From Ensifer sp. IC4062 (GTDB lineage Bacteria > Pseudomonadota > Alphaproteobacteria > Rhizobiales > Rhizobiaceae): a stretch of DNA of 64,000 nt. Positions 51,775 to 64,000 of the stretch are shown piece after piece. The stretch's first letter is position 1; each line of letters starts with the position of its first letter. The stretch is taken from NCBI RefSeq assembly GCF_020193575.1, contig NZ_JADYVD010000012.1:1-64000 (forward strand), given 5' to 3'. The notes below the pieces were generated by a model, which saw nothing but the letters and a program-made list of their open reading frames with translations, ran no database searches and was not told the origin of the DNA. Made by a program: the position numbers and the translations under genes.

Positions 51775-52269
51775 ATGAGGCTTCCTCCGTTGGCAAGAAC
51801 CAATCCCGAAATCACCCTCGATCCCTTTGACATGGCAATCCTGAAGATCCTCCAGAAGGACAATGCCACGCCGCAGCGAACGATCGGCGAGGCGGTCAAT
51901 CTCTCGGCACCGGCGGTGCAGCGGCGGATCAAGCGCATGGAGGAGGCGGGCGTGATTGCGGCCAATTGCGCCATCGTCGATCCGGCCAAGGTCGGCCGGC
52001 CGATCACGATCTTCGTCGAGGTAGAGGTGATCAGCGAGACGGCCGAACTGATCGATGCGGCAAAGGCGGAGTTTTCGGCCGCGCCGGAGGTGCAGCAATG
52101 CTACTACGTCACCGGCGAGGCGGATTTCATCCTGGTCATCGTCGTGGCGACCATGGCCGATTACGAGGCGCTGACGCGACGCCTCTTCTTCGGTAACAAC
52201 AACGTCAAGAAATTCCGCACCTTCGTCGCCATGGACCGCGTCAAGGTCGGGCTGACAGTGCCGCTTTGA
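51775..52269 (+). CDS. Lrp/AsnC-family regulator
   Basis: 164 residues from the ATG at 51775; the ATG at 51760 is the alternative and has GGGA upstream. The DNA-binding part is LDPFDMAILKILQKDNATPQ and LSAPAVQRRIKRMEEAGVI; the ligand (RAM) domain has CYYVTGEADFILVIVVATM. Divergent from the dpaL operon with a 150-base gap; very probably its amino-acid-responsive regulator. Confidence 0.92.
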   Translation: MRLPPLARTNPEITLDPFDMAILKILQKDNATPQRTIGEAVNLSAPAVQRRIKRMEEAGVIAANCAIVDPAKVGRPITIFVEVEVISETAELIDAAKAEFSAAPEVQQCYYVTGEADFILVIVVATMADYEALTRRLFFGNNNVKKFRTFVAMDRVKVGLTVPL

Positions 52270-52285
52270 GGTTCAAAGCGGGCAC
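52256..52285 (+). terminator. Hairpin at the 3' end of the Lrp gene
   Basis: CAGTGCC-GCTTTGA and TCAAAGC-GGGCACTG pair around the loop GGT, with one bulged base; the stop codon is in the stem. No T-run, but the facing gene ends 45 bases on. Confidence 0.5.
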
Positions 52286-52329
52286 TGTGATCTCGGATCG
52301 AAGTGGTTACCAGTAAAAGGCGATGGCAC

Positions 52330-54378
52330 CTACTCCCGGTTCCTTCGCCTTCTACGCCCGCCGCCTTCGCCGTCATCGGCCAGCACCTTGCGCGCGGGAA
52401 GCGTGACCACCTCGGCGAGCTTCGGGAACGCGTCCACCTTGTTCGGCATCGCCATGGCGTTGACGAAGTGCTCCTGAAATTTCGATTCAAGAGCCGTCTC
52501 TATCTTCTCGATTTTCCTCACGGTTTCCTCTATCTCGCGGCGATGGCCACGATTGAGGAGCGCCATCAGCGCGCCGGTGCCGGCGGCGTTACCCACCGCC
52601 TTCACCTCGGTAAGGTCGCAATCCGGGATGAGGCCCAGCACCATGGCGTATTTCGGATCGATGAAGGAGCCGAAGGCGCCGGCGAAGCGGATCGCGTCGA
52701 CATGCTCGACACCCTGTTTCTCCATGAGCAGCTTGATGCCGGCATAGAGCGCTGCCTTGGCGAGCTGGATAGCGCGGATATCGTTCTGCGTCACGGTGAT
52801 GCGTTGGTCGCCCTCGTGAAGAAGATAGGAGAAGGTGCGGCCGTTCGGCACGATGCGCGGGCTTCTCGCTGCCATGGCGCCATCGACCACGCCATCCTGC
52901 GAAATGATCCCGGTCAGATACATCTCCGCGACCACTTCGATAATCGCAGAACCGCAGATGCCGGTGACACCGACCGCGGCGGCGGCTTCGGCAAAACCTT
53001 CCTCGTCCGACCACTTGTCGACGCCGATCACTCGGAAGCGCGGCTCCAGCGTTTCGGGGTCGATACGTACGCGCTCGATCGCGCCGGGCGCGGCGCGCTG
53101 GCCGGAGGAGATTTCCGCGCCTTCGAAGGCCGGACCAGTCGGCGAGGATGCGGCGACGACGCGTTGCCGGTTGCCGAGCACGATCTCGGCATTGGTGCCG
53201 ACATCGACAAGCAGCATCATCGTGTCCTGCCGGTGCGGGCCTTCCGAAAGCGTGGCACCGGCGGCGTCGGCCCCGACATGGCCGGCAATGCAGGGCAGCA
53301 TATATAGCCTTGCGCCGCGATTGACCTCGATGTCGATCTCGTGCGCCCAATATTGCAGCGCGCCGGAAACGGCGAGCGCAAAGGGCGCCTGGCCCAGTTC
53401 GGTCGGGTCGATGCCGAGGAACAGGTGGTGCATGATCGGGTTGCCGACGACCACCATATCCAGGATGTCGTGGCGGTCGACCTTGCTCTCGGTGCAGACC
53501 TTGCCAATCAAGCCGTTCACCGCCTCGCGCACCGCCTTGGTCATCGCCTCGCGGCCGTCCGGGTTCATCATCACGTAGGAGACGCGGCTCATCAGATCCT
53601 CCCCGAAGCGGATCTGCGGGTTCGACGCGCCCGAGGAGGCGACGATGCGGCCGGAGAGGAGCGACACCAGATGCATGGCGATCGTCGTCGAGCCGATGTC
53701 GCAGGCGACGCCATAGGCTTCGTTCTTGAGGCCCGGCCAGAGGCCGACGATGAAGGGCCGCGAGGAATCCATGTCGCGGTGGATCGCGGCGGTGACGGCC
53801 CAGTTGCCCTTGCGCAGGATGCCTTGCACCTGCGGGATCAGATGCGGTGCGATCAGGAGGTCCTTCCAGCCCCAGTCCTTCTCCAGCATGGCTTTCAGCC
53901 GGTCGAGATCGCCGAGCGGCTTATGCATGTCCGGTTCGTCGACTTCGACATAGCAAAGCTGGACGGCGGCATTGCGCTCGATCACCCGGTCGGTCGCGGC
54001 CTTGCGCACCACTTGCGCATTGATGACGGTGTCCTGCGGCACGTCGATAACGAGATCGCCGAGGATCTGGGAGGAGCAAGAAAGACGGCGGCCATCCGGC
54101 AGTTCGCGTACGCTGGCGTAGCGCTGCTCTTTCGGGCCGATCGGCGAGATGTGGTCGTTCGACGAGATGATCTTGTGCTTGGCGAAGTTGCCTTCCTGCA
54201 CGGAAACCTGGCAGCGTCCGCAGGTCGCGCGCCCGCCGCACACGCTTTCCACGTAGACCCCGAGGGACCGAGCAGCATCAAGGATCGGTGTGCCGACCGG
54301 GAAGCGCCCGCGCTTGCCCGAAGGCATGAACAGCACCAGCGGATCGTCCTTGTTTTCCTTCGAGGACACGTTCAGCAT
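52330..54378 (-). CDS. Reductive activator of corrinoid enzymes (RACE), 2Fe-2S/ASKHA protein
   Basis: 682 residues from the ATG at 54378 (GAGGC upstream); the longer frame is a shadow of the genes upstream. An N-terminal [2Fe-2S] ferredoxin-type domain has Cys47, Cys53 and Cys56 (SVCGGRATCGRCQVSV) and Cys101. A linker and an ASKHA ATPase-like domain follow (ACDIGSTTIAMHLVSLLSGR, LLVDVGTNAEIVLG, FAGAFGSFIDPK). RamA-type activators reduce cob(II)alamin to cob(I)alamin with ATP. This keeps the corrinoid protein at 62230-62928 active. A Lys/Arg-rich tail ends the chain. Confidence 0.92.
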   Translation of the reverse strand: MLNVSSKENKDDPLVLFMPSGKRGRFPVGTPILDAARSLGVYVESVCGGRATCGRCQVSVQEGNFAKHKIISSNDHISPIGPKEQRYASVRELPDGRRLSCSSQILGDLVIDVPQDTVINAQVVRKAATDRVIERNAAVQLCYVEVDEPDMHKPLGDLDRLKAMLEKDWGWKDLLIAPHLIPQVQGILRKGNWAVTAAIHRDMDSSRPFIVGLWPGLKNEAYGVACDIGSTTIAMHLVSLLSGRIVASSGASNPQIRFGEDLMSRVSYVMMNPDGREAMTKAVREAVNGLIGKVCTESKVDRHDILDMVVVGNPIMHHLFLGIDPTELGQAPFALAVSGALQYWAHEIDIEVNRGARLYMLPCIAGHVGADAAGATLSEGPHRQDTMMLLVDVGTNAEIVLGNRQRVVAASSPTGPAFEGAEISSGQRAAPGAIERVRIDPETLEPRFRVIGVDKWSDEEGFAEAAAAVGVTGICGSAIIEVVAEMYLTGIISQDGVVDGAMAARSPRIVPNGRTFSYLLHEGDQRITVTQNDIRAIQLAKAALYAGIKLLMEKQGVEHVDAIRFAGAFGSFIDPKYAMVLGLIPDCDLTEVKAVGNAAGTGALMALLNRGHRREIEETVRKIEKIETALESKFQEHFVNAMAMPNKVDAFPKLAEVVTLPARKVLADDGEGGGRRRRRNRE

Positions 54379-54398
54379 CTTTCTGCCTCGCCAGCGGA

Positions 54399-54734
54399 TT
54401 ACTTCGAAAGCCGGCGGGCATTGGCCCGCACGCGCTTGGCATAAGGGCGCAGCACAGCCGCCGTCACCCGCTTGTGGCCGGTCGCCGGCAGCTTGCCGAC
54501 GGCAAGAGCTGCGACCGCGCCCATACCTTCCTTTATCAGTGCCACGTTGACGGCGACGACGCTTTCGGCTGCCGCCGCCATCTTCTCCGTCACCATGCGG
54601 CTCGCCTCCACGTAGTCGGTCGCGGCGCCAGTCATGGCGGCAATCGTCATCGCCTGCATGCGCGCGGCGATGACCATCGGCGCCTGGAACCAGAGTGCCG
54701 TCAGATCTCTGACGATGGAGCCGCCTTTTGCCAT
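54399..54734 (-). CDS. Small helical protein of the corrinoid locus, unknown
   Basis: 111 residues, nearly all helix and rich in Ala and Val (AARMQAMTIAAMTGAATDYV, AESVVAVNVALIKEG), with a basic end (YAKRVRANARRLSK). It has the look of a phasin-like or scaffold protein, but I do not recognise it. It lies 2 nt after the methyltransferase gene and 20 nt before the activator gene, so it is surely co-transcribed with the C1 genes. Confidence 0.75.
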   Translation of the reverse strand: MAKGGSIVRDLTALWFQAPMVIAARMQAMTIAAMTGAATDYVEASRMVTEKMAAAAESVVAVNVALIKEGMGAVAALAVGKLPATGHKRVTAAVLRPYAKRVRANARRLSK

Positions 54735-54736
54735 GA

Positions 54737-55702
54737 TTATTCCGCCCTTGCGCCTGCACCGGCGCGAGCCGCGCGGCCGCCACGACGTCCACCGCCGCCG
54801 CCAGCCGGTTGAGCAGCAGCCACGGCATGGCCGCCTTCGGCCGGCTTGTGGTCGCGATAGGTCATGATCCAGTTGGTGCAGTTCGGGTCGGTGCCGTTCA
54901 AGACGTTTGCCGCACGCACGGCTTCCATTTCCTGCGGACGGCAGGGGTTCATGATCGCCGAGGTCATGCCGGCGCCGATCACCATCGGGATGAAGCCGGC
55001 GTTGATGCCGTGACGGTGCGGCAGGCCGAAGGAGATGTTGGAGAGGCCGCAGGTGGTGTTGACCTTCAGTTCCTCACGCAGGCGCCGCAGCAACGCGAAG
55101 ACCTGCTGGCCCGCCGTGCCCATGGCGCCGATTGGCATGACGAGCGGATCGACGACGATGTCGTGCGACTTGATGCCGTAGTCGGCGGCGCGCTCGACGA
55201 TCTTCTTGGCGACGGCGAAACGGACATCCGGATCCTCGGAAATGCCCGTCTCGTCGTTGGAGATCGCGACGACGGGAACGTCGTATTTCTTGATGAGCGG
55301 CAGGATCGCTTCGAGCTTCTCTTCTTCGCCCGTGACCGAATTCACCAGCGGACGGCCCTTGGCAACCCGCAGGCCCGCTTCAATCGCGGCGGTGACGGAG
55401 CTATCGATCGACAGCGGCACGTCAACCAGGCCCTGGACGATCTCCAGCGTCTTGACGAGCAGCGGCGGTTCGGTCTCGTTCGGGTTGACGGCGGTGACGC
55501 CGGCATTGACGTCGAGCATCGTCGCGCCGGCCGCGACCTGTTCCAGCGCATCCTTGATCACGGTCTCGAAGTTGCCTTCGATCATCTCGGCAGCAAGCTT
55601 CTTGCGGCCGGTCGGGTTGATGCGCTCGCCGATGACGCAGAAGGGCTGGTCGAAGCCGATGACGATTTCGCGGGTGGCGGAAGCGACGATGGTGCGGGTC
55701 AT
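54737..55702 (-). CDS. Methyltetrahydrofolate:corrinoid methyltransferase (pterin-binding)
   Basis: 321 residues. Pterin-binding barrel motifs: VIGERINPTGRKKLAAEMIE, GATMLDVNAGV, PLSIDSSVTAAIEAGL and TTCGLSNISFGLPHRHGINA. It would take the methyl group from the methylated corrinoid protein to tetrahydrofolate, as MtgA-type or AcsE-type enzymes do. The C-terminal 35 residues are a low-complexity Gly/Ala/Arg tail (AAQPAGGGGGRRGGRAARAG), unusual for the family. In the operon 57783-52330. Confidence 0.92.
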   Translation of the reverse strand: MTRTIVASATREIVIGFDQPFCVIGERINPTGRKKLAAEMIEGNFETVIKDALEQVAAGATMLDVNAGVTAVNPNETEPPLLVKTLEIVQGLVDVPLSIDSSVTAAIEAGLRVAKGRPLVNSVTGEEEKLEAILPLIKKYDVPVVAISNDETGISEDPDVRFAVAKKIVERAADYGIKSHDIVVDPLVMPIGAMGTAGQQVFALLRRLREELKVNTTCGLSNISFGLPHRHGINAGFIPMVIGAGMTSAIMNPCRPQEMEAVRAANVLNGTDPNCTNWIMTYRDHKPAEGGHAVAAAQPAGGGGGRRGGRAARAGAGARAE

Positions 55703-55812
55703 GTAAGATCCTTTGATCCTGAGCGTGGGGCTATGTAATAGGCCCCGTCTTTGTTTGTAAGCGCTCGACGGGCCGAAGCGCTGGTTTTCCTCTGATATCG
55801 AACGGCTGCGTC

Positions 55813-56904
55813 CTAGTGCGGGTGGTGTGCCGCGGCCTCCGCCATCTTTTCCTGATTTTCCTCGATGCCCTCGCGGAGATGTTCGAGCCGCTCGGCCACC
55901 AGTGCATCGCTCGGCATGCTTTCGCGCTTCCAGGGCTTGCGGCCCTTCAGGACGCCAGACTCATGCACGATCTCGGCGACATATTCCTCTTGGCGATAGG
56001 CCATGACGTGGACGCCCGAGACGCCCTCGATCTCCTTCACCTCGTTGATGATGTCGATGCAGAGCTGCTTGCCTTCCTTCTTCTGGTCCTGCGCGCCCTC
56101 GAGCCGCGTAATGACGCTGTCGGGAATGTGGATGCCCGGCACATTGGAGCGGATCCAGCGAGCGGTCTTGGCCGAGGCCATCGGCCCGACGCCGACGAGG
56201 ATGAAGCACTTCTCGTGGAGGCCCAGGTCGCGCACCTTCTTCATGTATTCGCGGAACATCGGCACGTCGAAGCAGTACTGGCTCTGGACGAACTGCGCGC
56301 CGGCCTCGATCTTCTTGGCGAGCCGGTACGGGCGGAAATCGTAAGGCGGTGCGAAGGGGTTGATCGCGGCGCCCAAGAACACGTGCGGCGGCGTCGTCAG
56401 CTTGCGGCCGGACAGGAACTTCGCATTGTCGCGCATGATGCGCACGGTCTCGAGCAGCGACATGCAGTCAAGATCAAAGACGGGCTTGGCGCCGGGCTGG
56501 TCGCCGGCCTGCACGCCGTCGCCGGTCAGGCACATGATGTTCTGCACGCCCATTGCGGAGGCGCCGAGCACGTCGCCCTGGATGGCGATGCGGTTCTTGT
56601 CGCGGCAGGCGATCTGCATGATCGGCGCATAGCCCATGCGCGTCAGCAGCGCACAGATTCCGACCGACGACATGTGGCAATTGGCGCCTGACGCGTCGAC
56701 CGCGTTGATGCCGTCCACCCAGCCGTCGAAGATCGCCGCGCGTTCGTAGACGTCCTCGGGATTGGCGCTGTCCGGCGGGTTGAGTTCGGCGGTCACGGCG
56801 AATTCGCCGCGGCGCAGCACGCGCTCCAGTCGCCCGCGCGAGGAATGGCCAGGCAGGGGATCGAGCGGTGCGCCGGGATCGTGAGGATTGATATCCGGGC
56901 TCAT
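55813..56904 (-). CDS. Methylenetetrahydrofolate reductase, MetF-type
   Basis: 363 residues from the ATG at 56904. TIM-barrel features: FAVTAELNPPDSANPEDVYE, GINAVDASGANCHMSS, NIMCLTGDGVQAGDQPGAK and AQFVQSQYCFD. In this locus it would run in the oxidative direction, methyl-THF to methylene-THF, after methyl transfer. Its start overlaps by ATGA the stop of a separate MetV-like iron-sulfur protein, which suggests a two-subunit enzyme. It is longer than E. coli MetF by about 65 residues, mainly at the ends. Confidence 0.9.
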   Translation of the reverse strand: MSPDINPHDPGAPLDPLPGHSSRGRLERVLRRGEFAVTAELNPPDSANPEDVYERAAIFDGWVDGINAVDASGANCHMSSVGICALLTRMGYAPIMQIACRDKNRIAIQGDVLGASAMGVQNIMCLTGDGVQAGDQPGAKPVFDLDCMSLLETVRIMRDNAKFLSGRKLTTPPHVFLGAAINPFAPPYDFRPYRLAKKIEAGAQFVQSQYCFDVPMFREYMKKVRDLGLHEKCFILVGVGPMASAKTARWIRSNVPGIHIPDSVITRLEGAQDQKKEGKQLCIDIINEVKEIEGVSGVHVMAYRQEEYVAEIVHESGVLKGRKPWKRESMPSDALVAERLEHLREGIEENQEKMAEAAAHHPH

Positions 56905-57488
56905 TGCTGCTGGCCTTCCTTCTTCGCCGCTTCGCGGGCGGCTGCGGCTTCCGCCGTCACCCGCAACCACGACGATGTTTCGCGCAGCGACTGGTTGACC
57001 GGCTTCTGCACATTCATGATTGCGTTACCCTTCACCATATTCTGCGAGCCCTTCCACGCCTGGACCCAGACGCAGGGCATGTCCGGCTCCACCTCGCAAT
57101 TGCCGTTGGCGCGCACGCCGCCGCAAGGACCGTTCCTGAGTTGCTTAGGACAGTTCATCGGGCAGGACATGCCGGTCGAGGACAGCGCGCACTGGCCGCA
57201 CATGCGACAATCGAAGAGGAATCCCTTGACGTGGCGCTCGACGAAAGTCACCGGCCTTTCAACCCGGCTGTAGCCGATCGCGTTCCAGAGCGGGTGCAGC
57301 GTTAGGAACATGTCGGCGAAGCGGTTGTAGAACCACTCGAGGAAGCGCGAGTTGCGCACTGCCCAGAGACGCACGGTGTATTTGTGGCGCGAGCGGCGGC
57401 TCGGCGAGACGTTCGCCGGGATATAGGCGCCGGTTGCCGCCTTCTTGGCGGGCTGGGCGTTGCCGGTGACGACTTTCGGGTCAGGCAT
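56901..57488 (-). CDS. MetV-like iron-sulfur partner of MetF (MTHFR C-terminal domain)
   Basis: 195 residues from the ATG at 57488. A Cys-rich core has Cys94, 97, 100, 109, 113, 122, 131 and 139 (FDCRMCGQCALSSTGMSCP, MNCPKQLRNGPCGG). This matches the C-terminal domain that in acetogens is the separate protein MetV, a partner of MetF. It probably brings iron-sulfur centres and an electron acceptor to the reductase. It overlaps the preceding gene by 8 bases and metF by 4, so all three are coupled. Confidence 0.9.
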   Translation of the reverse strand: MPDPKVVTGNAQPAKKAATGAYIPANVSPSRRSRHKYTVRLWAVRNSRFLEWFYNRFADMFLTLHPLWNAIGYSRVERPVTFVERHVKGFLFDCRMCGQCALSSTGMSCPMNCPKQLRNGPCGGVRANGNCEVEPDMPCVWVQAWKGSQNMVKGNAIMNVQKPVNQSLRETSSWLRVTAEAAAAREAAKKEGQQQ

Positions 57489-57783
57489 TGTCTCGGCCTC
57501 CGGCCTTGACGAGCGCGACCAGCCGCTCCCGGTCGTAGGCAGCCTCGAGTTCCGCCGCCGCCTTGTCGGCTTCCGCTTCCAGATCGTCGGAGACCGGAAC
57601 CGGATCGGCCTTGCGCCATTCGGCAAGGTAGTCGTCGGTCTCCGCGGCGCCGGTGCGCATCGCGCACATGTCGATCGCCTCGGTAAAGCGCAGCGACAGT
57701 TCACGTTTGGCGCTTTTGCGACCCTGTTTGATGATGACCTGGGCGGGGATGTCGCGCCAGTAGACTATGATGCGATCTGCCAT
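57481..57783 (-). CDS. Small virulence-factor-domain protein of the corrinoid locus
   Basis: 100 residues. The start MADRIIVYWRDIPAQVIIKQ and KRELSLRFTEAIDMCAMRTG match the small family named virulence factor (no proven function). An acidic helix follows (DDLEAEADKAAAELEAAYD). First gene of the operon that runs to the activator at 52330, with translational overlap to the MetV-like gene. A role in C1 transfer is suggested only by position. Confidence 0.82.
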   Translation of the reverse strand: MADRIIVYWRDIPAQVIIKQGRKSAKRELSLRFTEAIDMCAMRTGAAETDDYLAEWRKADPVPVSDDLEAEADKAAAELEAAYDRERLVALVKAGGRDNA

Positions 57784-58060
57784 AGGGATTCCTGTTCTCC
57801 TCTAGACCCGACAATGCGCATGTCCATCCGCCGTCGCTCACCTTGCCACGACGTCGGATATGTCCAAAAACGACGCTCCCCAATCGTGTATCCGAGTGGG
57901 TTTGCATTCGTCGCGATTGGCCCTCCGCGCGTGCTCTCAGTGGACATGGAAAAACTATCGGCGACCGTGTGCGTCGCGCGGAAGACCACCGGCGCGCACG
58001 GGACAGGGCGCCGCGGAACAGCGGGCTGCCTCACTCGTTTAGAGCTTGAGGGCTCTGAGC

Positions 58061-58147
58061 ATGCGTGACGGGAATTTGCTATCAATCGTGGTGCTGGCGA
58101 TCATCGTCGCAATCCTCGTGTTCGCCGTCGTGGCGCTCATGGAGTGA
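58061..58147 (+). CDS. Tiny single-helix membrane protein
   Basis: 28 codons from the ATG at 58061, with GAGGG eight bases upstream. The sequence is a short polar start (MRDGNLLS) and one hydrophobic helix (IVVLAIIVAILVFAVVALM) ending in ME. The helix and the ribosome site make it credible, but length alone leaves doubt. Confidence 0.45.
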   Translation: MRDGNLLSIVVLAIIVAILVFAVVALME

Positions 58148-58161
58148 TGCCGGCTCCCGCG

Positions 58162-58259
58162 GCGGCGCTGCATCTTATCCGACACGAGAACGGCGCTGTA
58201 GCGGTTTGAATTAATGCATGTTTTTAATCCTCAATCGGGGTGATTGAGGAAACATACAG
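58162..58259 (-). repeat. Diverged family B mosaic repeat (reverse orientation)
   Basis: Diverged copy with GGCGCTGTAGCGGTTTGAAT, TAATGCATGTTT and a CCTCAATC-GGGGT-GATTGAGG hairpin closing at AACATACAG. It lies between the tiny gene and the lipoprotein. Confidence 0.6.
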
Positions 58260-58274
58260 CCCCACCGGGCGTCG

Positions 58275-58454
58275 TTAATAGCCCGAGCTTCCGCCTCCTT
58301 GGCCGCCGCCCATGCCGCCAGTTCCCGAGGAACCGGCGCTGCCGGACTGACTGGGTGGAGGAGGGGCTGTGTTCTGGCTTGTTTGGCTGGTCGTGCATCC
58401 CGCAACCGCCAGGAGCGCTGTCGCAATCGCGACGACGAGAAATCTGCGGTCCAT
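58275..58454 (-). CDS. Small Gly/Ser-rich lipoprotein
   Basis: 59 residues from the ATG at 58454; an ATG four codons upstream is possible. Lipoprotein signal RRFLVVAIATALLAVAGC with the lipobox AVAGC, then a Gln/Thr and Pro stretch and a Gly/Ser-rich end (GTGGMGGGQGGGSSGY). No fixed fold expected. Function unknown. Confidence 0.75.
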   Translation of the reverse strand: MDRRFLVVAIATALLAVAGCTTSQTSQNTAPPPPSQSGSAGSSGTGGMGGGQGGGSSGY

Positions 58455-58645
58455 GGTCTTCTCCAATCATGGAGGCTGTGGCGAAGCCCGTAATATTCCG
58501 CCAATTGCTGGTCAAAAGCATGGCGCGGTAATGCGCCCGACGTTCGCCGGGTCGGCGCACTACAGCGCAGGTGCCCGGCAGGAAGGGCAGGTTGGTCCCG
58601 AGAATGTCGGCGGTCGGGGCCGGCCGAAAGGCGCCTCGTTTACGG

Positions 58646-58843
58646 CTACGCGGCATCCACGACGGCTGTCGTCGCGCGATTTCGGTCAAGTTCGACCAGC
58701 ACCCTTAGGGCAGCCTCTGCCTCTTCTTCGGTCAGACCTCCAAGGATCTGATCGGCAAATACCACCGGCACGCCGGTCACGTTGTCCCACACTGTCCAAT
58801 GGTCGGTCGGATCGAGAACGAGTTCATAGCGCTCTTGTGACAT
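58646..58843 (-). CDS. Small protein, unknown
   Basis: 65 residues from the ATG at 58843 with GGGGGA upstream. Sequence MSQERYELVLDPTDHWTVWD, then a helix (GGLTEEEAEAALRVLVELDR). No signal or cysteine. Probably a small soluble protein; family not recognised. Confidence 0.7.
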   Translation of the reverse strand: MSQERYELVLDPTDHWTVWDNVTGVPVVFADQILGGLTEEEAEAALRVLVELDRNRATTAVVDAA

Positions 58844-59086
58844 TGTGTTCCCCCAGCTTCTCACCCTGTTTATCCGATTCGGCGTTGCAAGCCATGACAG
58901 GCGGAGAGCGGCCGATGGTAGCATTGCCGCGCGGAAACCGCGATACTGATCCACCTGCCTCCGCCGTCACATGGGTCTCTCGGCGCACTCTCCATGAAGC
59001 CGAACGGTAGCGCATGAAACTTAAGCGTCAGTGTATCCAGGGGGGGGAGAGGCTCGCTGGGAGCTGCCACCGCATCCGTCCGCTGT

Positions 59087-59980
59087 TCAGAGGTCGCGAA
59101 GATCGAGATCCGCCGCCAGCATGTCGAGAAAGGTCCGAACCTTGGCGGGCATCGATCGCCCGTCCTTCCAGAGAGCATGGATCGGCACCGGTACCGACTC
59201 GAATGAGTCGAGCACGATTTCGACTCGTCCGTCATCGACCAGCCGCCTGATCTGCCACAGGGGAGAGTAACCAAGCCCAAGACCCTGGGATACAGCCGCA
59301 TAGATCGAAATCATCGAATCGACACGCAAGGGGCCGGTTACCCTCACTGCGCGCGGTTTTCCGTCGATTTCGAACATCCACTCACCGAAGCGTTGGCCGA
59401 CATTACGCAGGATGCAATGGTGATTGACGAGGTCCGAAGGGTGACGCGGGCGGCCATGCCGATCGAGGTAGGAGGGCGCACCGAAGACCACGCGTCGCAG
59501 TTTCCCAAGTCGCCTCGCCCGTAGATTCGAATCCGGCAATTCGCCGATGCGGACCACCAGATCAATGTTTTCCGCCGCCAAGTCTACAAATGCATCCGAT
59601 AGCAGCAGGTCCACCTCGACTTCGGGATAGCGGCGCATGTAGCGGGCAACAATTGGCATCAGGAATTCCGGCCCGAACAGCACCGGCGCGCCGAGCCGGA
59701 GAATGCCGGACGGTTGTATCCGGCCGCTTGCGGCTTCAAGCTTTGCTTGCTCAAGTTCTTCGATTGCCGGTTTGATGCGTTGATAGAAGGTCATGCCCGC
59801 TTCGCTCGGCGTCGAGCGGCGGGTCGTTCGATGTACGAGCTCGACGCCGACCGACGCCTCGAGGGCAGCTAGCGACCGGCTTACCGACTGAAGCGACCGG
59901 TTAAGGCGTCGCGCGGCAGTCGTGAGGCTTCCGCGTTCAACGATCGCCAGAAAGGCCTCGTAGTCTTCCAACCTGTCCAT
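59087..59980 (-). CDS. LysR-family regulator
   Basis: 297 residues from the ATG at 59980; the longer frame is a shadow. Winged helix YEAFLAIVERGSLTTAARRL with RSLQSVSRSLAALEASVGVE. The effector domain is of the CrgA type (LRLGAPVLFGPEFLMPIVAR). Divergent from an NmrA-like oxidoreductase gene, the usual target of such regulators. Unrelated to the C1 genes by content. Confidence 0.92.
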   Translation of the reverse strand: MDRLEDYEAFLAIVERGSLTTAARRLNRSLQSVSRSLAALEASVGVELVHRTTRRSTPSEAGMTFYQRIKPAIEELEQAKLEAASGRIQPSGILRLGAPVLFGPEFLMPIVARYMRRYPEVEVDLLLSDAFVDLAAENIDLVVRIGELPDSNLRARRLGKLRRVVFGAPSYLDRHGRPRHPSDLVNHHCILRNVGQRFGEWMFEIDGKPRAVRVTGPLRVDSMISIYAAVSQGLGLGYSPLWQIRRLVDDGRVEIVLDSFESVPVPIHALWKDGRSMPAKVRTFLDMLAADLDLRDL

Positions 59981-60110
59981 GGTTCTACCGATTTGCGAGA
60001 TAGTGTGTCTCGCATTGTCGATATTGTCTCGCAGAATGGCAAGGTCATATCTTTCCGGTACAGAGCACTCGTACCAGGAGCATAGAAAGTGACCGCTACC
60101 ATATCCGACC

Positions 60111-60965
60111 GTGCTCGTGATCGGAGCGACCGGCAGGTTCGCCGGTCTAGTCGTACCGGAACTCGTCCGTCGCGGAGCAAGAGTCCGCGCTCTCATCCGC
60201 GATCCAGCCAAGGTCGCCGCCGCGAGAGGCTCCGGCCTTTCAGAGACGGTGATCGGTGACCTGCGAAACCGGGAGAGCCTCAACGAAGCCGTACGTGGCG
60301 CCGATGGTGTCTTTCACATCGGACCTGCGTTCGCGCCGGACGAGGCTGCGTTGGGCATCACGCTGGTCGAGGCGGCGAAGAGGGCAGGCGTCCAGAAGTT
60401 TGTCTTCTCCTCGGTCGCCCAGCCGACGAACGCTCGTCTTAAGAACCATGCAAGCAAGGTACCGGTCGAGGATGCGCTCTATTCCTCCACTTTGGACTAC
60501 ACGATCCTGCACCCGGTCAACTTCATGCAGAACATCGCATCGGTCCGGCCGTCGATCGTCGAAACCGGCGTCTTTTCCGAACCCTTTCCAAAGACGGCGA
60601 AGGTCGCGCGCGTTGATTATCGCGATGTTGCGGAGGTTGCCGCCATTGCGCTCACGAGTGATCGCTTGTCCTTTGCAACGCTGGAGCTCGCTGCCGAAGG
60701 CCGACCGAGCCGAGAAGAGATTGCGGCGCACATGTCCGATGCGCTTGGGCGTCAGATCGCCGCCGGCGAGCCAAGCTTTGAGACATGGGCGAGATCCATC
60801 CGCCACGGCTACACCAATCGGGAATTGGCCCTCCTGTCCAAGGTGCATGAGCATTATGCGCTCTATGGCCTCGGCGGGAACAGTCTGACGCTCCGAGCAG
60901 CACTCGATCGCGAGCCGCGGTCGCTGCGCGGATATGTAGAGGAACTGGCGCGGCAGGCCGCATGA
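60111..60965 (+). CDS. NmrA-like NAD(P)-binding oxidoreductase
   Basis: 284 residues from the GTG at 60111. Rossmann start LVIGATGRFAGLVVPELVRR; NmrA-like marks ADGVFHIGPAFAPDE and DYTILHPVNFMQNIA. There is no Ser-Tyr-Lys triad, so it may sense or reduce a quinone-like compound. The start is odd: a TGA lies seven codons upstream in frame, no ribosome site fits, and the bases before (GTGACCGCTACCATATCC) would give the usual N-terminus in another frame. Confidence 0.85.
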   Translation: MLVIGATGRFAGLVVPELVRRGARVRALIRDPAKVAAARGSGLSETVIGDLRNRESLNEAVRGADGVFHIGPAFAPDEAALGITLVEAAKRAGVQKFVFSSVAQPTNARLKNHASKVPVEDALYSSTLDYTILHPVNFMQNIASVRPSIVETGVFSEPFPKTAKVARVDYRDVAEVAAIALTSDRLSFATLELAAEGRPSREEIAAHMSDALGRQIAAGEPSFETWARSIRHGYTNRELALLSKVHEHYALYGLGGNSLTLRAALDREPRSLRGYVEELARQAA

Positions 60966-60990
60966 CCAGATTCACCCACCAACGTGCCCC

Positions 60991-61272
60991 ATGAAAAAGG
61001 ACTTTCGAATGCTTACGCTCGGACGCAAGTCGTTGACGATCAAGAAACTTCCCTCGCGCTACGCGGTCGTCGTCATGCCACTGATACTCTCGGTGCTCAT
61101 GTCCGGAATCGTGTCAGCGGTATCGACGCTGATGAATGCCGGGTGGGATCAATTTGCCGCGACCTGGCCCCATGCCTGGGGTGCGTCCTGGCTGATTGCT
61201 TACCCCAGTTTGATGCTGCTTCTTCCGGTCGTTCGCCGGATCGTTGGAGTGCTCGTCGAGCAGCGGGCCTGA
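60991..61272 (+). CDS. DUF2798 membrane protein
   Basis: 93 residues. Two hydrophobic helices (YAVVVMPLILSVLMSGIVSA and AWGASWLIAYPSLMLLLPVV) separated by STLMNAGWDQFAATWPHAWG are typical of DUF2798. It follows the NmrA-like gene by 25 bases and belongs to that unit. Function unknown. Confidence 0.88.
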   Translation: MKKDFRMLTLGRKSLTIKKLPSRYAVVVMPLILSVLMSGIVSAVSTLMNAGWDQFAATWPHAWGASWLIAYPSLMLLLPVVRRIVGVLVEQRA

Positions 61273-61285
61273 ATTCGATCAAAAC

Positions 61286-61906
61286 TCAAGCGTCGATCAG
61301 CGACCGCGTCAGGTCGCCATAGCCGGTGAAGCGATATTCGTATTCGAGACCGAGCCTTTCGGCGGCGCGGCGGGCCTTTTCCTGCAGCGCCTTGTCTTCC
61401 ACCTGCGAGAGGTAGACGAGCTTGCGGTAGTGGCCGAAATACATGTCGCGCAGTTCCGGATGCCGGTCGAGGCCGAGCGGTTCGATGACGAAGGCCTCGA
61501 ATTGGCGGGCGAGGAAGTCGGTGAGAAAGAAGGCACTGAGGTCGTCGTCCCAGCGCTTTGCGAAATCGGCGTTCCCGGCGAAGAAAGAATAACAGTGCGG
61601 CCCGGGAATGCGTGTCACGCGTTCCTCTTCGCAGAGCCGGTCGAGTTCACCGCCGGTGCCGCAATCGGCATAGGCGATGAAGATGCGCTCGAAGCCCTGT
61701 TCACGCGCCCGGGCGATCGCCTCGCGCAGGCCCGGCGTGATTTTTTCCGGGGTGTTGTGCCAGATGGCGGGCAGGCAATGGAGGTCGATGTGATCGAGCC
61801 GGTTGGCCTCGCAGATAGCAAGAATTTCGCGCGCGATCGCTCCACAACCAATGACGTGAACTTTCTTCGGTTGTGCACGTTCTCTTGCCGACGGTCTATT
61901 TTCCAT
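61286..61906 (-). CDS. DUF1638 protein of the corrinoid locus
   Basis: 206 residues from the ATG at 61906 (GGCGGA upstream). Core motifs KVHVIGCGAIAREILAICEA, HCLPAIWHNTPEKITPGLRE, IAYADCGTGGELDRLCEE and CYSFFAGNADF. DUF1638 genes are regularly found with MttB-family methyltransferases and corrinoid proteins, and the cysteines suggest a metal or corrinoid role, but none is proven. It is separated from the other C1 genes by the LysR/NmrA block on one side. Confidence 0.88.
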   Translation of the reverse strand: MENRPSARERAQPKKVHVIGCGAIAREILAICEANRLDHIDLHCLPAIWHNTPEKITPGLREAIARAREQGFERIFIAYADCGTGGELDRLCEEERVTRIPGPHCYSFFAGNADFAKRWDDDLSAFFLTDFLARQFEAFVIEPLGLDRHPELRDMYFGHYRKLVYLSQVEDKALQEKARRAAERLGLEYEYRFTGYGDLTRSLIDA

Positions 61907-61945
61907 CTTTATTCCGCCTTGCAACAACATGAAGGAATCATGGTC

Positions 61946-62104
61946 ATGACGACAAAAGCTCTCGCGATGATCGGCGCCGTTCTGGTGGCCCTGACAACCC
62001 TGAGTTCCTGCGCCAACACAATCCGCGGCATGGGGCAGGATACTGCAAACACCGTGAACGCGACACAAGGGGCCGGTCAAAGGGTTGCCAAGGCAGCCAA
62101 CTGA
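61946..62104 (+). CDS. Entericidin-like small lipoprotein
   Basis: 52 residues from the ATG at 61946, with GAAGGA nine bases upstream; an ATG at 61940 is possible. Signal ALAMIGAVLVALTTLSSC with lipobox LSSC, then ANTIRGMGQDTANTVNATQG, typical of the entericidin family. Membrane-anchored, stress-linked. It lies between two C1 genes but reads the other way. A terminator follows. Confidence 0.85.
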   Translation: MTTKALAMIGAVLVALTTLSSCANTIRGMGQDTANTVNATQGAGQRVAKAAN

Positions 62105-62170
62105 GGATTCCAACGGCCAGGATGGGCGCCCCTGAGAGTGGCGTCGTTCCTCGCTGCCCCTGAATATAGG

Positions 62171-62213
62171 AAAGCCGGCTGCGGTGTTCATCCACGCAGC
62201 CGGTTTCTTTTTT
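62171..62213 (+). terminator. Rho-independent terminator
   Basis: CCGGCTGCG (62175-62183) pairs with CGCAGCCGG (62195-62203); the run TTTCTTTTTT follows. It ends the entericidin-like gene and may also work for the facing corrinoid protein gene, whose stop is 17 bases away. Confidence 0.85.
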
Positions 62214-62229
62214 GAAGAGACTTCTGGTC

Positions 62230-62928
62230 TTAGCCAGCTGCGAGTCGGTTGTGCTTGCGCTTCATGAAGTCCTTGGCGGTCTCCACGGCGACGGCGGCAT
62301 CGCGACAATAGGCGTCTGCACCGACGGCCTTGCCGAATTCCTCGTTGAGTGGCGCGCCACCGACGAGAACGACGTAGTCGTCGCGCAGGCCTTTTTCCTT
62401 CATCGTGTCGATAACGACCTTCATGTAGGGCATCGTGGTCGTCAGCAGGGCCGACATGCCGAGGATGTCCGGCTGTTCGCGTTCGATCGCTTCCAGATAG
62501 TTCTCGACCGGGTTGTTGATGCCGAGGTCGACAACGTCGAAGCCGGCACCTTCCATCATCATGCCGACGAGGTTCTTGCCGATGTCATGGATATCGCCCT
62601 TGACGGTGCCGATGACCATCTTGCCGAGCTTCGGCGCGCCGGTTTCGGCAAGCAGAGGACGCAGGATCGACATGCCGGCCTTCATCGCATTGGCCGAAAG
62701 TAGAACTTCCGGCACGAAGAGAATGCCGTCGCGGAAGTCGATGCCGACAATGCGCATGCCCTCGACGAGCGCCTGGGTGAGGATGTCGTAGGGCGTCCAG
62801 CCCCGTTCGAGAAGGATACGCGTCCCTTCCTCGATTTCCTCCTTGAGACCGTCGTAAAGGTCGTCATGCATCTGCTGCACGAGTTCCTCGTCGGAAAGGT
62901 CCGCGAGAATGATTTCATCGTCTGCCAT
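62230..62928 (-). CDS. Corrinoid protein (MtbC/MtgC-like methyl carrier)
   Basis: 232 residues from the ATG at 62928. An N-terminal helical cap (about 10-95: LKEEIEEGTRILLERGWTPY) is followed by the B12-binding domain with GTVKGDIHDIGKNLVGMMME; His114 is the lower cobalt ligand. VENYLEAIEREQPDILGMSA and VLVGGAPLNEEF complete the fold. It carries the methyl group from the MttB-type enzyme to the pterin methyltransferase at 54737-55702. Divergent from MttB with a 531-base gap. Confidence 0.94.
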   Translation of the reverse strand: MADDEIILADLSDEELVQQMHDDLYDGLKEEIEEGTRILLERGWTPYDILTQALVEGMRIVGIDFRDGILFVPEVLLSANAMKAGMSILRPLLAETGAPKLGKMVIGTVKGDIHDIGKNLVGMMMEGAGFDVVDLGINNPVENYLEAIEREQPDILGMSALLTTTMPYMKVVIDTMKEKGLRDDYVVLVGGAPLNEEFGKAVGADAYCRDAAVAVETAKDFMKRKHNRLAAG

Positions 62929-63459
62929 ATTAGGGTTCCTCGGTTCCTGGCACGGTAGTCTTCGCGGTGATCTGGCTCGGTCGGGCACGATCCGGACGCG
63001 TTGCCCATCCTTAGCGGTCCAAACCTAAAAATCTCTTTTCGAAAGCGACGTCGCATATGATGAAAAGCGACGGCACTGGTGGTTCGTCCGCGGTTCCATA
63101 GTCCTATCGCACTTCAGCCGCGCACGGAATCGCTTGTCCAGTAAAATCCTGCAACAGTTCAAGATGTTACATTTGGCTACATCGTTTTTCGCACAAGGAC
63201 TTTGGTGGGCGTGGCGTAGATTCTTGGAGCCCTGTCGACCCTTGACTGATCTCACGGTTGAGTGTCTGAGATGCGCCACGCGTTGGCGCATTGAGACCCG
63301 TACCGGTTCGGCGGCTTGGTAGCATTAGCCCAAAATCGATCCCGGCGCATGGTTTCGACCGTTGGTCTCGAACTTCGGGAGGAATATGCGCCACTTAATC
63401 AAAGCGTTGCCGCGTCCCATGGAGAGCCCAGAAAGGCGCGGCGGGAGAGGAATGAGCGA
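62929..63459. promoter_or_regulatory. Long divergent promoter region of the methyltransferase pair
   Basis: 531 bases between the corrinoid protein and MttB genes. The open frames here have no ribosome sites. It contains the palindrome at 63265-63297 and AT-richer stretches near 63120-63190. I searched by eye for a cobalamin riboswitch B12 box and did not find one. Confidence 0.55.
63265..63297. promoter_or_regulatory. Palindrome, candidate operator upstream of mttB-like gene
   Basis: Perfect 8-base arms ATGCGCCA (63271-63278) and TGGCGCAT (63284-63291) around CGCGT. The outer bases GTCTGAG and TGAGAC extend the dyad imperfectly. The position, about 170 bases before the mttB-like start, fits a regulator site. 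Confidence 0.55.
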
Positions 63460-64000
63460 ATGAGCGACGTAACAGAACAAGGTGCGGTCGAAGGCGGCGG
63501 ACGCCGCGCGCGTGGCGAGGGACGTGGGGCGGCGGCGCGCCGGGCATCGCGCACCGGCGGCGGTCCGGGACCGTCTCTCCCCTACATTCAGCGTAAGATT
63601 CGCGAATACGAAGTGCTGGACGAGGAAGGCCTGCAACTCATCGAGCGCAACGCCGACACCGTGCTCGAGGAGATCGGCATCGAGTTCCGCGACGACGCCG
63701 AAGCGCTCGATCTGTGGAAGGCAGCCGGCGCCGACGTGCGCGGCCAGCGCGTTCACTTCCCGAAGGGGCTCTGCCGCGAACTTCTGAAGACCGCGCCGTC
63801 GAACTTCACCTGGCATGCACGCAATCCCGAGCGCAGTGCGCATGTCGGCGGCAAGGCAACGATCTTTGCACCGGTCTACGGGCCGCCCTTCGTGCGCGAT
63901 CTCGAAGGCAATCGCCGTTACGCGACGATCGAGGATTTCCGCAATTTCGTGAAGCTCGCCTACCTCGCGCCGTCGATGCATTCGTCCGGCGGTACCGTCT
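63460..64000 (+). CDS. Trimethylamine methyltransferase (MttB) family protein, N-terminal part
   Basis: 180 codons from the ATG at 63460 (GGGAGAGGA upstream) before the window ends. A 40-residue Gly/Arg/Ala-rich leader (GRRARGEGRGAAARRASRTG) comes first. Then the MttB family start is clear: LPYIQRKIREYEVLDEEGLQ, VLEEIGIEFRDDAEALDLWK, TWHARNPERSAHVGGKATIF and APVYGPPFVRDLEG. MttB relatives without pyrrolysine demethylate glycine betaine or similar quaternary amines; the substrate here is unknown. The residue that is pyrrolysine in archaeal MttB lies beyond the window. Confidence 0.92.
   Translation, partial: MSDVTEQGAVEGGGRRARGEGRGAAARRASRTGGGPGPSLPYIQRKIREYEVLDEEGLQLIERNADTVLEEIGIEFRDDAEALDLWKAAGADVRGQRVHFPKGLCRELLKTAPSNFTWHARNPERSAHVGGKATIFAPVYGPPFVRDLEGNRRYATIEDFRNFVKLAYLAPSMHSSGGTV

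Follow-up and report, generated by a model that had tools for sequence, protein, structure and literature searches.

In Ruegeria pomeroyi, aerobic, corrinoid-dependent demethylation of glycine betaine has been demonstrated through genetic and proteomic work; MtgB, MtgC and MtgD are modelled to demethylate glycine betaine to methyl-tetrahydrofolate (methyl-THF), MtgC and MtgD being also needed for methionine synthesis, with MtgE serving as the homocysteine module (PMC12478193). This 2025 paper further describes the aerobic glycine betaine demethylase as having a core in common with the split methionine synthase, and aerobic MtgC as a separate lineage (PMC12478193). The stretch of DNA considered here, referred to as the window, spans positions 1 to 64,000 of contig NZ_JADYVD010000012.1 (C33) of Ensifer sp. 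IC4062, whose 7.1 Mb genome is 99.96% complete. As judged from the encoded proteins and their arrangement, positions 52330-64000 of the window very probably belong to the Sinorhizobium mtg locus, which would act as a corrinoid methyltransferase hub in an aerobe. The pathway itself appears to be that already known, with what is new being a putative link between the reductive activase RamA and a small protein of family PF13769, annotated as a "virulence factor".

In Sinorhizobium meliloti, MtgBCDE, the two reactivation modules and cobalamin synthesis are encoded by genes that sit together, and across 156 genomes with MtgBCD, full-length methionine synthase (MetH) is lacking from 108, those with both being typically Hyphomicrobiales, SAR324 and certain other Alphaproteobacteria (PMC12478193). 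In taking such gene sets to be known only from anaerobes, the sequence-only reading of the window was outdated. In Phaeobacter inhibens, mutant fitness showed RamA and a DUF1638 protein to be needed for methionine synthesis, with both being proposed to act in B12 reactivation, while the presence of the two in S. meliloti despite a full MetH was left unexplained (PMC5764234). Betaine demethylation by the MtgB pathway offers what would be a natural answer. The S. meliloti DUF1638 protein SMc04333 has also been listed among changed proteins (-3.60; PMC12542648), from which no inference is drawn here.

Genes of the mtg Locus and Their Conservation

The six genes named in the sequence-only reading all proved to be real, with Pfam matches that are strong and far above chance. 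mtgB, encoding a non-pyrrolysine MttB-family protein, begins at position 63460 on the plus strand, a start taken from alignment with PDB entry 4yyc and from the S. meliloti gene, and continues beyond the end of the window at 64000 to contig position 65034. The portion within the window matched MTTB at 1.8e-56, and full MtgB, which contains no internal stop, scored 772.6 bits against PF06253. The remaining genes lie on the minus strand. mtgC (62230-62928) is predicted to encode a corrinoid-binding methyl carrier with B12-binding (1.1e-25) and cap (1e-16) domains, whose sequence contains the DxHxxG cobalamin motif as DIHDIG. mtgD (54737-55702) would encode a methyl-THF/corrinoid methyltransferase (Pterin_bind 1.5e-28; NCBIfam NF005719 406 bits, cut-off 259), metF2 (55813-56904) a methylene-THF reductase paralogue proposed to work in the oxidative direction (MTHFR 1.1e-33), and metV (56901-57488) the DUF5981 partner of MetF (PF12225 2e-27). 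ramA (52330-54390) encodes a RACo/RamA-type ATP-dependent corrinoid reductive activase with an N-terminal [2Fe-2S] domain (Pfam RACo_C_ter 4.6e-90, together with Raco_middle, linker and Fer2), whose score against NCBIfam AcsV, 389 bits, falls under the cut-off of 800. MetF2, MetV and MtgC were scanned against profiles as longer open reading frames (ORFs), the shorter starts given here reflecting our own reading.

Three members of the same set had been overlooked, namely genes for a DUF1638 protein (61286-61909, minus strand; PF07796 6e-28) and the 100-residue PF13769 protein (57481-57783, minus strand; 4.3e-27), here proposed as a RamA accessory, as well as a 111-residue ORF described below. 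In the direction of transcription, the minus-strand order is PF13769, metV, metF2, mtgD, the 111-residue ORF and ramA. Because metV overlaps the PF13769 gene by 8 nt and metF2 by 4 nt, and the gaps that follow are of 110 nt (metF2-mtgD), 2 nt (mtgD-111-residue ORF) and 8 nt (111-residue ORF-ramA), this block reads as a single operon. The DUF1638 gene and mtgC lie further up on the same strand, with mtgB being divergent from both. The six families were correctly placed within one 11.7-kb stretch, yet this stretch is not unbroken, since the region at approximately 57784-61285 carries other ORFs. The same gene order, with annotated products, is found in the S. meliloti Ak57 record, and window MtgB is 99% identical to the MtgB proteins of Sinorhizobium sp. 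6-70 and S. psoraleae, making a Sinorhizobium the most likely source of the genome.

Conservation was considered in related loci, taken with 10-kb flanks as the best 80 of at least 581 ranked by MtgB similarity. Counts refer to the 75 longer than 21 kb, the five shorter loci being left out. Apart from MtgB, present in all 75 by construction as the selection criterion, DUF1638 and MtgC were each found in 75, PF13769 in 73, MtgD in 72, RamA in 71 and MtgE in 65, with some of the misses falling at the 10-kb flank limit. MetF2 and MetV were each found in 59, both being present in those loci and both lacking from the other 16. A divergent MetF-like gene of 302 residues replaces MetF2 and MetV in two of seven checked loci that lack both (L076 and L086; MTHFR 4e-8 and 1.2e-8), while ORFs of 311 and 324 residues occupying this position in two further genomes gave no Pfam match. 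These ORFs of about 300-320 residues between PF13769 and mtgD include L086:5299-6207, a divergent MetF by Pfam, and L157:7908-8843, for which there was no match.

PF13769 Co-Occurs with, and in Eight Proteins Is Fused to, the Reductive Activase

The distribution of PF13769 was addressed in 172 evenly drawn alphaproteobacterial genomes, in which MttB and RACo were each found in 36, PF13769 in 32, DUF1638 in 31 and MetV in 16. PF13769 was present in 32 of the 36 genomes with MttB (29 of 30 when only those of good quality are counted) and in none of the 136 others, and all 32 also contain RACo. Of the 29 genomes with both PF13769 and DUF1638, 21 have the DUF1638 gene immediately upstream of PF13769 and in the same orientation. 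All 11 fetched PF13769 neighbourhoods (L143-L153) contain one or more further members of the set, DUF1638 alone in L151, several of these neighbourhoods having been picked on account of a DUF1638 or RACo already located nearby.

A second sample of 398 Pseudomonadota genomes, sharing G022 and G154 with the first, was searched for PF13769 and not for MttB. The family was found in 41 genomes, of which 40 are Alphaproteobacteria, and in each of the 15 neighbourhoods fetched (from 15 of the 41 genomes) an mtgD match lay no more than 1.7 kb from PF13769. The non-alphaproteobacterial genome G247 encodes MtgB, together with a run of MtgC-DUF1638-PF13769-MetV-MetF2-MtgD-RamA. Likewise, a plasmid of the betaproteobacterium Azoarcus sp. 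KH32C carries MtgC-DUF1638-PF13769-MetV-MetF-MtgD-RamA beside betaine transport genes, with MttB some 25 kb away.

When PF13769 was sought in long proteins, 10 were found, of which eight are PF13769-RamA fusions, one from Terrarubrum flagellatum and seven from metagenomes (L155:9001-11283 and P0242-P0248). In these, PF13769 is followed by the [2Fe-2S] domain (without a Pfam match in P0247), the linker, the middle domain and the C-terminal domain. In T. flagellatum, PF13769 thus forms the N-terminus of RamA, and the gene order is MtgC, DUF1638, PF13769-RamA. The remaining two proteins, P0249 (with MetV/MetF) and P0250 (with MtgC), were not counted as fusions, as by eye they appear to be neighbours merged by frame errors.

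In light of the fusion to RamA, the operon position and the near-perfect co-occurrence, PF13769 would best be read as an accessory of the corrinoid reductive activase, taking part in corrinoid reactivation. Whether PF13769 is, more specifically, a dedicated activase subunit of oxygen-breathing bacteria, which docks where RamA bears its [2Fe-2S] domain and acts together with DUF1638 and the QueG-like cobalamin/iron-sulphur protein encoded next to mtgB to hold MtgC as cob(I) under aerobic conditions, is to our minds an evenly balanced question. The single methanogen control genome, that of Methanosarcina acetivorans, which contains MttB, RACo/RamA and DUF1638 without PF13769, is cited alongside this oxygen-breather proposal and at the same time argues against a universal role for PF13769. 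A further argument against such a universal role comes from the control genome of Bacillus subtilis, which contains PF13769 without MttB, RACo or DUF1638. The question of how cob(I)alamin chemistry is kept going in air had been raised in the sequence-only reading, and the overlooked DUF1638, PF13769 and ferredoxin-like genes all bear on its answer.

These findings suggest that, in these bacteria, "virulence factor" is a misleading label for the family. A PDB sequence search with PF13769 and DUF1638 returned nothing significant. Among the matches listed in literature searches, those for PF13769/CvfC included neither the term "PF13769" nor any title on this system, and "virulence factor" was absent from those for RACo or reductive activator with corrinoid. 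"MetV" and "virulence" are absent from the main text of the Ruegeria report (PMC12478193), as are "PF13769" and "virulence" from that of the Phaeobacter report (PMC5764234), as far as these main texts were available.

Substrate of MtgB and Its Paralogues

In a PDB search, MtgB scored 412 bits against 9yce, a solved glycine betaine methyltransferase, 415 bits against 2qne from Desulfitobacterium hafniense, and 137 bits against pyrrolysine-containing MttB. 2qne is the glycine betaine methyltransferase MtgB of D. hafniense (PMC9842639). In an alignment read by eye, window MtgB contains Leu at the position of pyrrolysine in MttB. An in-frame amber codon had been named as something to be looked for in the remainder of the gene; none was found, full MtgB having no internal stop. 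Pyrrolysine use was also rejected at the level of the genome, given that none of its four MttB genes has an internal stop and that the PylS profile reached only 23.9 bits (cut-off 178), in line with the earlier remark that no pyrrolysine genes are seen in the window (tRNA-Pyl was not searched).

The four MttB proteins differ in their similarity to 9yce, with 412.4 bits for window MtgB, 407.5 for the copy on C22, 323.7 for that on C102 and 190.8 for that on C131. RACo, DUF1638, PF13769 and MetV each gave a single match in the genome. One RACo/DUF1638/PF13769/MetV set alongside four MttB genes fits an arrangement of one hub and several METHYLTRANSFERASES, that is, a core shared by several methyltransferases. 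Several MtgB copies in a genome have been considered as possibly serving diverse methylated compounds (PMC12478193). The C22 gene (L010:9230-12851) overlaps a gene for a large FMN/FAD flavoprotein of the old-yellow-enzyme type, and the two may act as a pair in demethylating a different betaine. The C131 protein (L012:9448-16073) is divergent, with 365 bits against PF06253, and its gene adjoins two dimethylglycine-dehydrogenase-like genes.

Elsewhere in the genome, two GbcA-like Rieske oxygenases scored 492 and 521 bits and a third 119 bits, the NF058607 cut-off of 670 being reached by none. The two genes (L099 and L100) each adjoin a reductase-like ORF, as seen by eye. They may represent a second, oxygen-dependent betaine route.

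FerX, a Second Candidate Accessory

Directly behind mtgB and outside the window, C33:65142-65840 (= L009:4143-4841) encodes a ferredoxin-like protein of 232 residues, here termed FerX, found in 72 of the 75 related loci. Eight cysteines are common to 78 aligned copies, each being present in at least 77 of these, and their spacing points to two groups of four. The FerX profile matched the iron-sulphur part of Escherichia coli QueG (E 5.9e-5, probability 65), QueG being a protein that binds cobalamin along with two [4Fe-4S] clusters, and, in an alignment of 133 columns reaching into the preceding domain, a two-sequence QueG profile (E 8.8e-6, probability 83), made from E. coli QueG and one of eight fetched stretches, the other seven being dropped for want of a QueG match over 200 residues. 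By contrast, likeness to CblC was not significant, be it against Pfam MMACHC (E 0.11 and 0.26 in two of three copies scanned) or six MMACHC chains (E 0.4-0.67).

With 11 weaker matches of 44 (E 4.7e-14 to 3.7e-4) dropped, FerX was found at E < 1e-20 in 33 genomes of the first sample, 25 of the 36 with MttB and eight of the 136 without. As such, FerX as an obligatory part of the system is unsupported, 11 MttB genomes lacking it and eight others containing it. FerX lies beside MtgD-RamA in G088, beside MtgC in G117 and with MtgC and a URO-D-type protein in G125, and is 1.6-2.3 kb from an MttB in G037 and G165, while no mtg gene was seen near FerX in most other distant genomes fetched. FerX is probably a cobalamin/iron-sulphur protein of the same economy rather than a proven part of it, and so a weaker candidate than is PF13769. 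In L133 (G125:C32), FerX is found together with DUF1638, a URO-D-type protein and a corrinoid protein in a genome without an MttB match, perhaps representing a different corrinoid methyltransferase system with the same accessories.

Proposed Pathway and Alternative Explanations

In the proposed pathway, MtgB would demethylate glycine betaine or a closely related betaine, the methyl group being taken up by the cob(I)alamin of MtgC, from where MtgD would pass it to THF, with MetF2 and MetV oxidizing the methyl-THF so formed into the one-carbon pool. In reverse, MtgD and MtgC could hand methyl groups to MtgE to yield methionine, a branch that the sequence-only reading had missed. RamA and DUF1638, together with PF13769, for which this part is inferred, would use ATP to return cob(II)alamin to cob(I)alamin. 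Predicted here are the substrate, the direction in which MetF2 runs and the part of PF13769 as a RamA accessory. The sequence-only reading had envisaged that an amine of the betaine type is demethylated through a corrinoid, independently of pyrrolysine, and its methyl group passed to THF, which is supported by the scores of MtgB against 9yce and pyrrolysine MttB and by the betaine transporter gene noted below. The betaine assignment is also supported because such loci, that of S. meliloti included, have been described as encoding an aerobic glycine betaine demethylase (PMC12478193), although this means that the pathway is already in print for such organisms.

Three other explanations deserve consideration, each addressing a separate point and none excluding another. 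Were MtgC, MtgD, RamA and DUF1638 used mainly to make methionine, forming a split MetH together with MtgE, and were betaine catabolism minor in this organism, then the presence of mtgE on the same contig and the methionine-related phenotypes of RamA and DUF1638 in Phaeobacter (PMC5764234) would be expected. However, the genome encodes a full MetH, mtgC and DUF1638 accompany mtgB in all 75 related loci (themselves selected by MtgB) and MetF2 occurs with MetV in 59, making this explanation very unlikely. More plausible, if still on the doubtful side, is that MtgB acts on another substrate, such as proline betaine, carnitine, gamma-butyrobetaine or choline, leaving glycine betaine to a paralogue or to the GbcA-like oxygenases. 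The four MttB genes, the dimethylglycine-dehydrogenase-like and flavoprotein genes beside the C131 and C22 paralogues, respectively, and the differing substrates of Eubacterium paralogues (PMC12478193) speak for this; against it, window MtgB and the C22 copy resemble the solved glycine betaine enzyme more closely than do the other two. Finally, PF13769 could be a general passenger of the operon, for instance a MetF2/MetV factor rather than a RamA partner, as its gene shares the 8-nt overlap with metV and as several other loci have a MetF-like ORF separating PF13769 from mtgD. Yet PF13769 is kept in 14 of the 16 loci without both MetF2 and MetV, comes immediately after DUF1638 in 21 of the 29 genomes and is cleanly fused to RamA only, rendering this proposal unlikely.

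Betaine demethylation, with PF13769 as a putative accessory of the activase, remains our preferred explanation, to be weighed against several observations. Sequence does not by itself settle which substrate is used, the present proposals drawing on homology, conservation, gene order and fusions, and the GbcA-like oxygenases could remove betaine in another way. The methionine branch may be redundant, because a complete MetH with its reactivation domain is encoded on C137. The Fisher p value of 9.8e-31 for PF13769 with MttB ignores relatedness. Moreover, four of the 36 MttB genomes lack PF13769 (G064, G071, G077 and G127, three of which are only 68-82% complete), six lack DUF1638 and two lack RACo. 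In T. flagellatum, the 18-kb stretch with the fusion gave no match to MtgD or MtgB, while in Paracoccus aminovorans PF13769 was not found in the 25-kb stretch of an otherwise similar plasmid cluster (the chromosome was not searched).

Neighboring Genes

The gene for MtgE (mtgE/bmt), a betaine-homocysteine-type S-methyltransferase, lies at C33:71274-72107, approximately 7 kb outside the window (NF005718 577 bits, cut-off 338). The same contig also contains, outside the window, genes for a betaine ABC transporter, including the substrate-binding protein (OpuAC 2.2e-58), and a CobQ-like gene recognized by eye. No Rfam element, such as a cobalamin riboswitch, reached its gathering score in window positions 52000-64000 or in C33:61000-80000.

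Between mtgD and ramA, the 111-residue ORF (54399-54734, minus strand) is without a Pfam match and was assigned no function. It is present in 26 of the 75 related loci, and a "hypothetical protein" at its place in S. meliloti is 76% identical. By eye, its composition is reminiscent of phasin-like helical proteins. Among the ORFs at 57784-61285 are one of the LysR type and one NmrA-like, named by eye (approximately 59087-60965). These were rejected as parts of the system, as they are not kept in relatives, the NmrA-like ORF having no match in any of the 80 related loci and the LysR-type ORF only matches of 30-34% in nine of the 75.

Comparison with Known Systems

The locus brings to a genus of soil symbionts all the genes of a pathway that was elucidated in marine bacteria, and PF13769, with its clear fusion to RamA, offers a concrete and testable candidate for how super-reduced cobalamin is kept working in air. 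Of the systems compared, pyrrolysine MttB of methanogens has PF06253 in common with window MtgB, which, however, scored 286 bits against TIGR02369 (525 needed), contains Leu in place of pyrrolysine and has no internal stop. With MtgB/MtgC/MtgA of the anaerobe D. hafniense, the locus shares the MtgB family, whereas its MtgC falls under the cut-offs of NCBIfam NF047995 and NF047996 (177 of 310 and 211 of 370 bits, respectively). Homologues of MtgC, MtgD, MtgE, RamA and DUF1638 are common to this locus and the split methionine synthase of P. inhibens, the study of which concerns methionine (PMC5764234). Unlike R. pomeroyi, this genome retains a full MetH, such that the frequent absence of MetH does not extend to it, nor is that absence required. 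The locus is like the aerobic MtgBCDE system (PMC12478193) in having a non-pyrrolysine PF06253 MtgB, a stand-alone MtgC with cap and B12 domains, a pterin-binding MtgD with MetF2 as neighbor, RamA and DUF1638, and, outside the window, MtgE.

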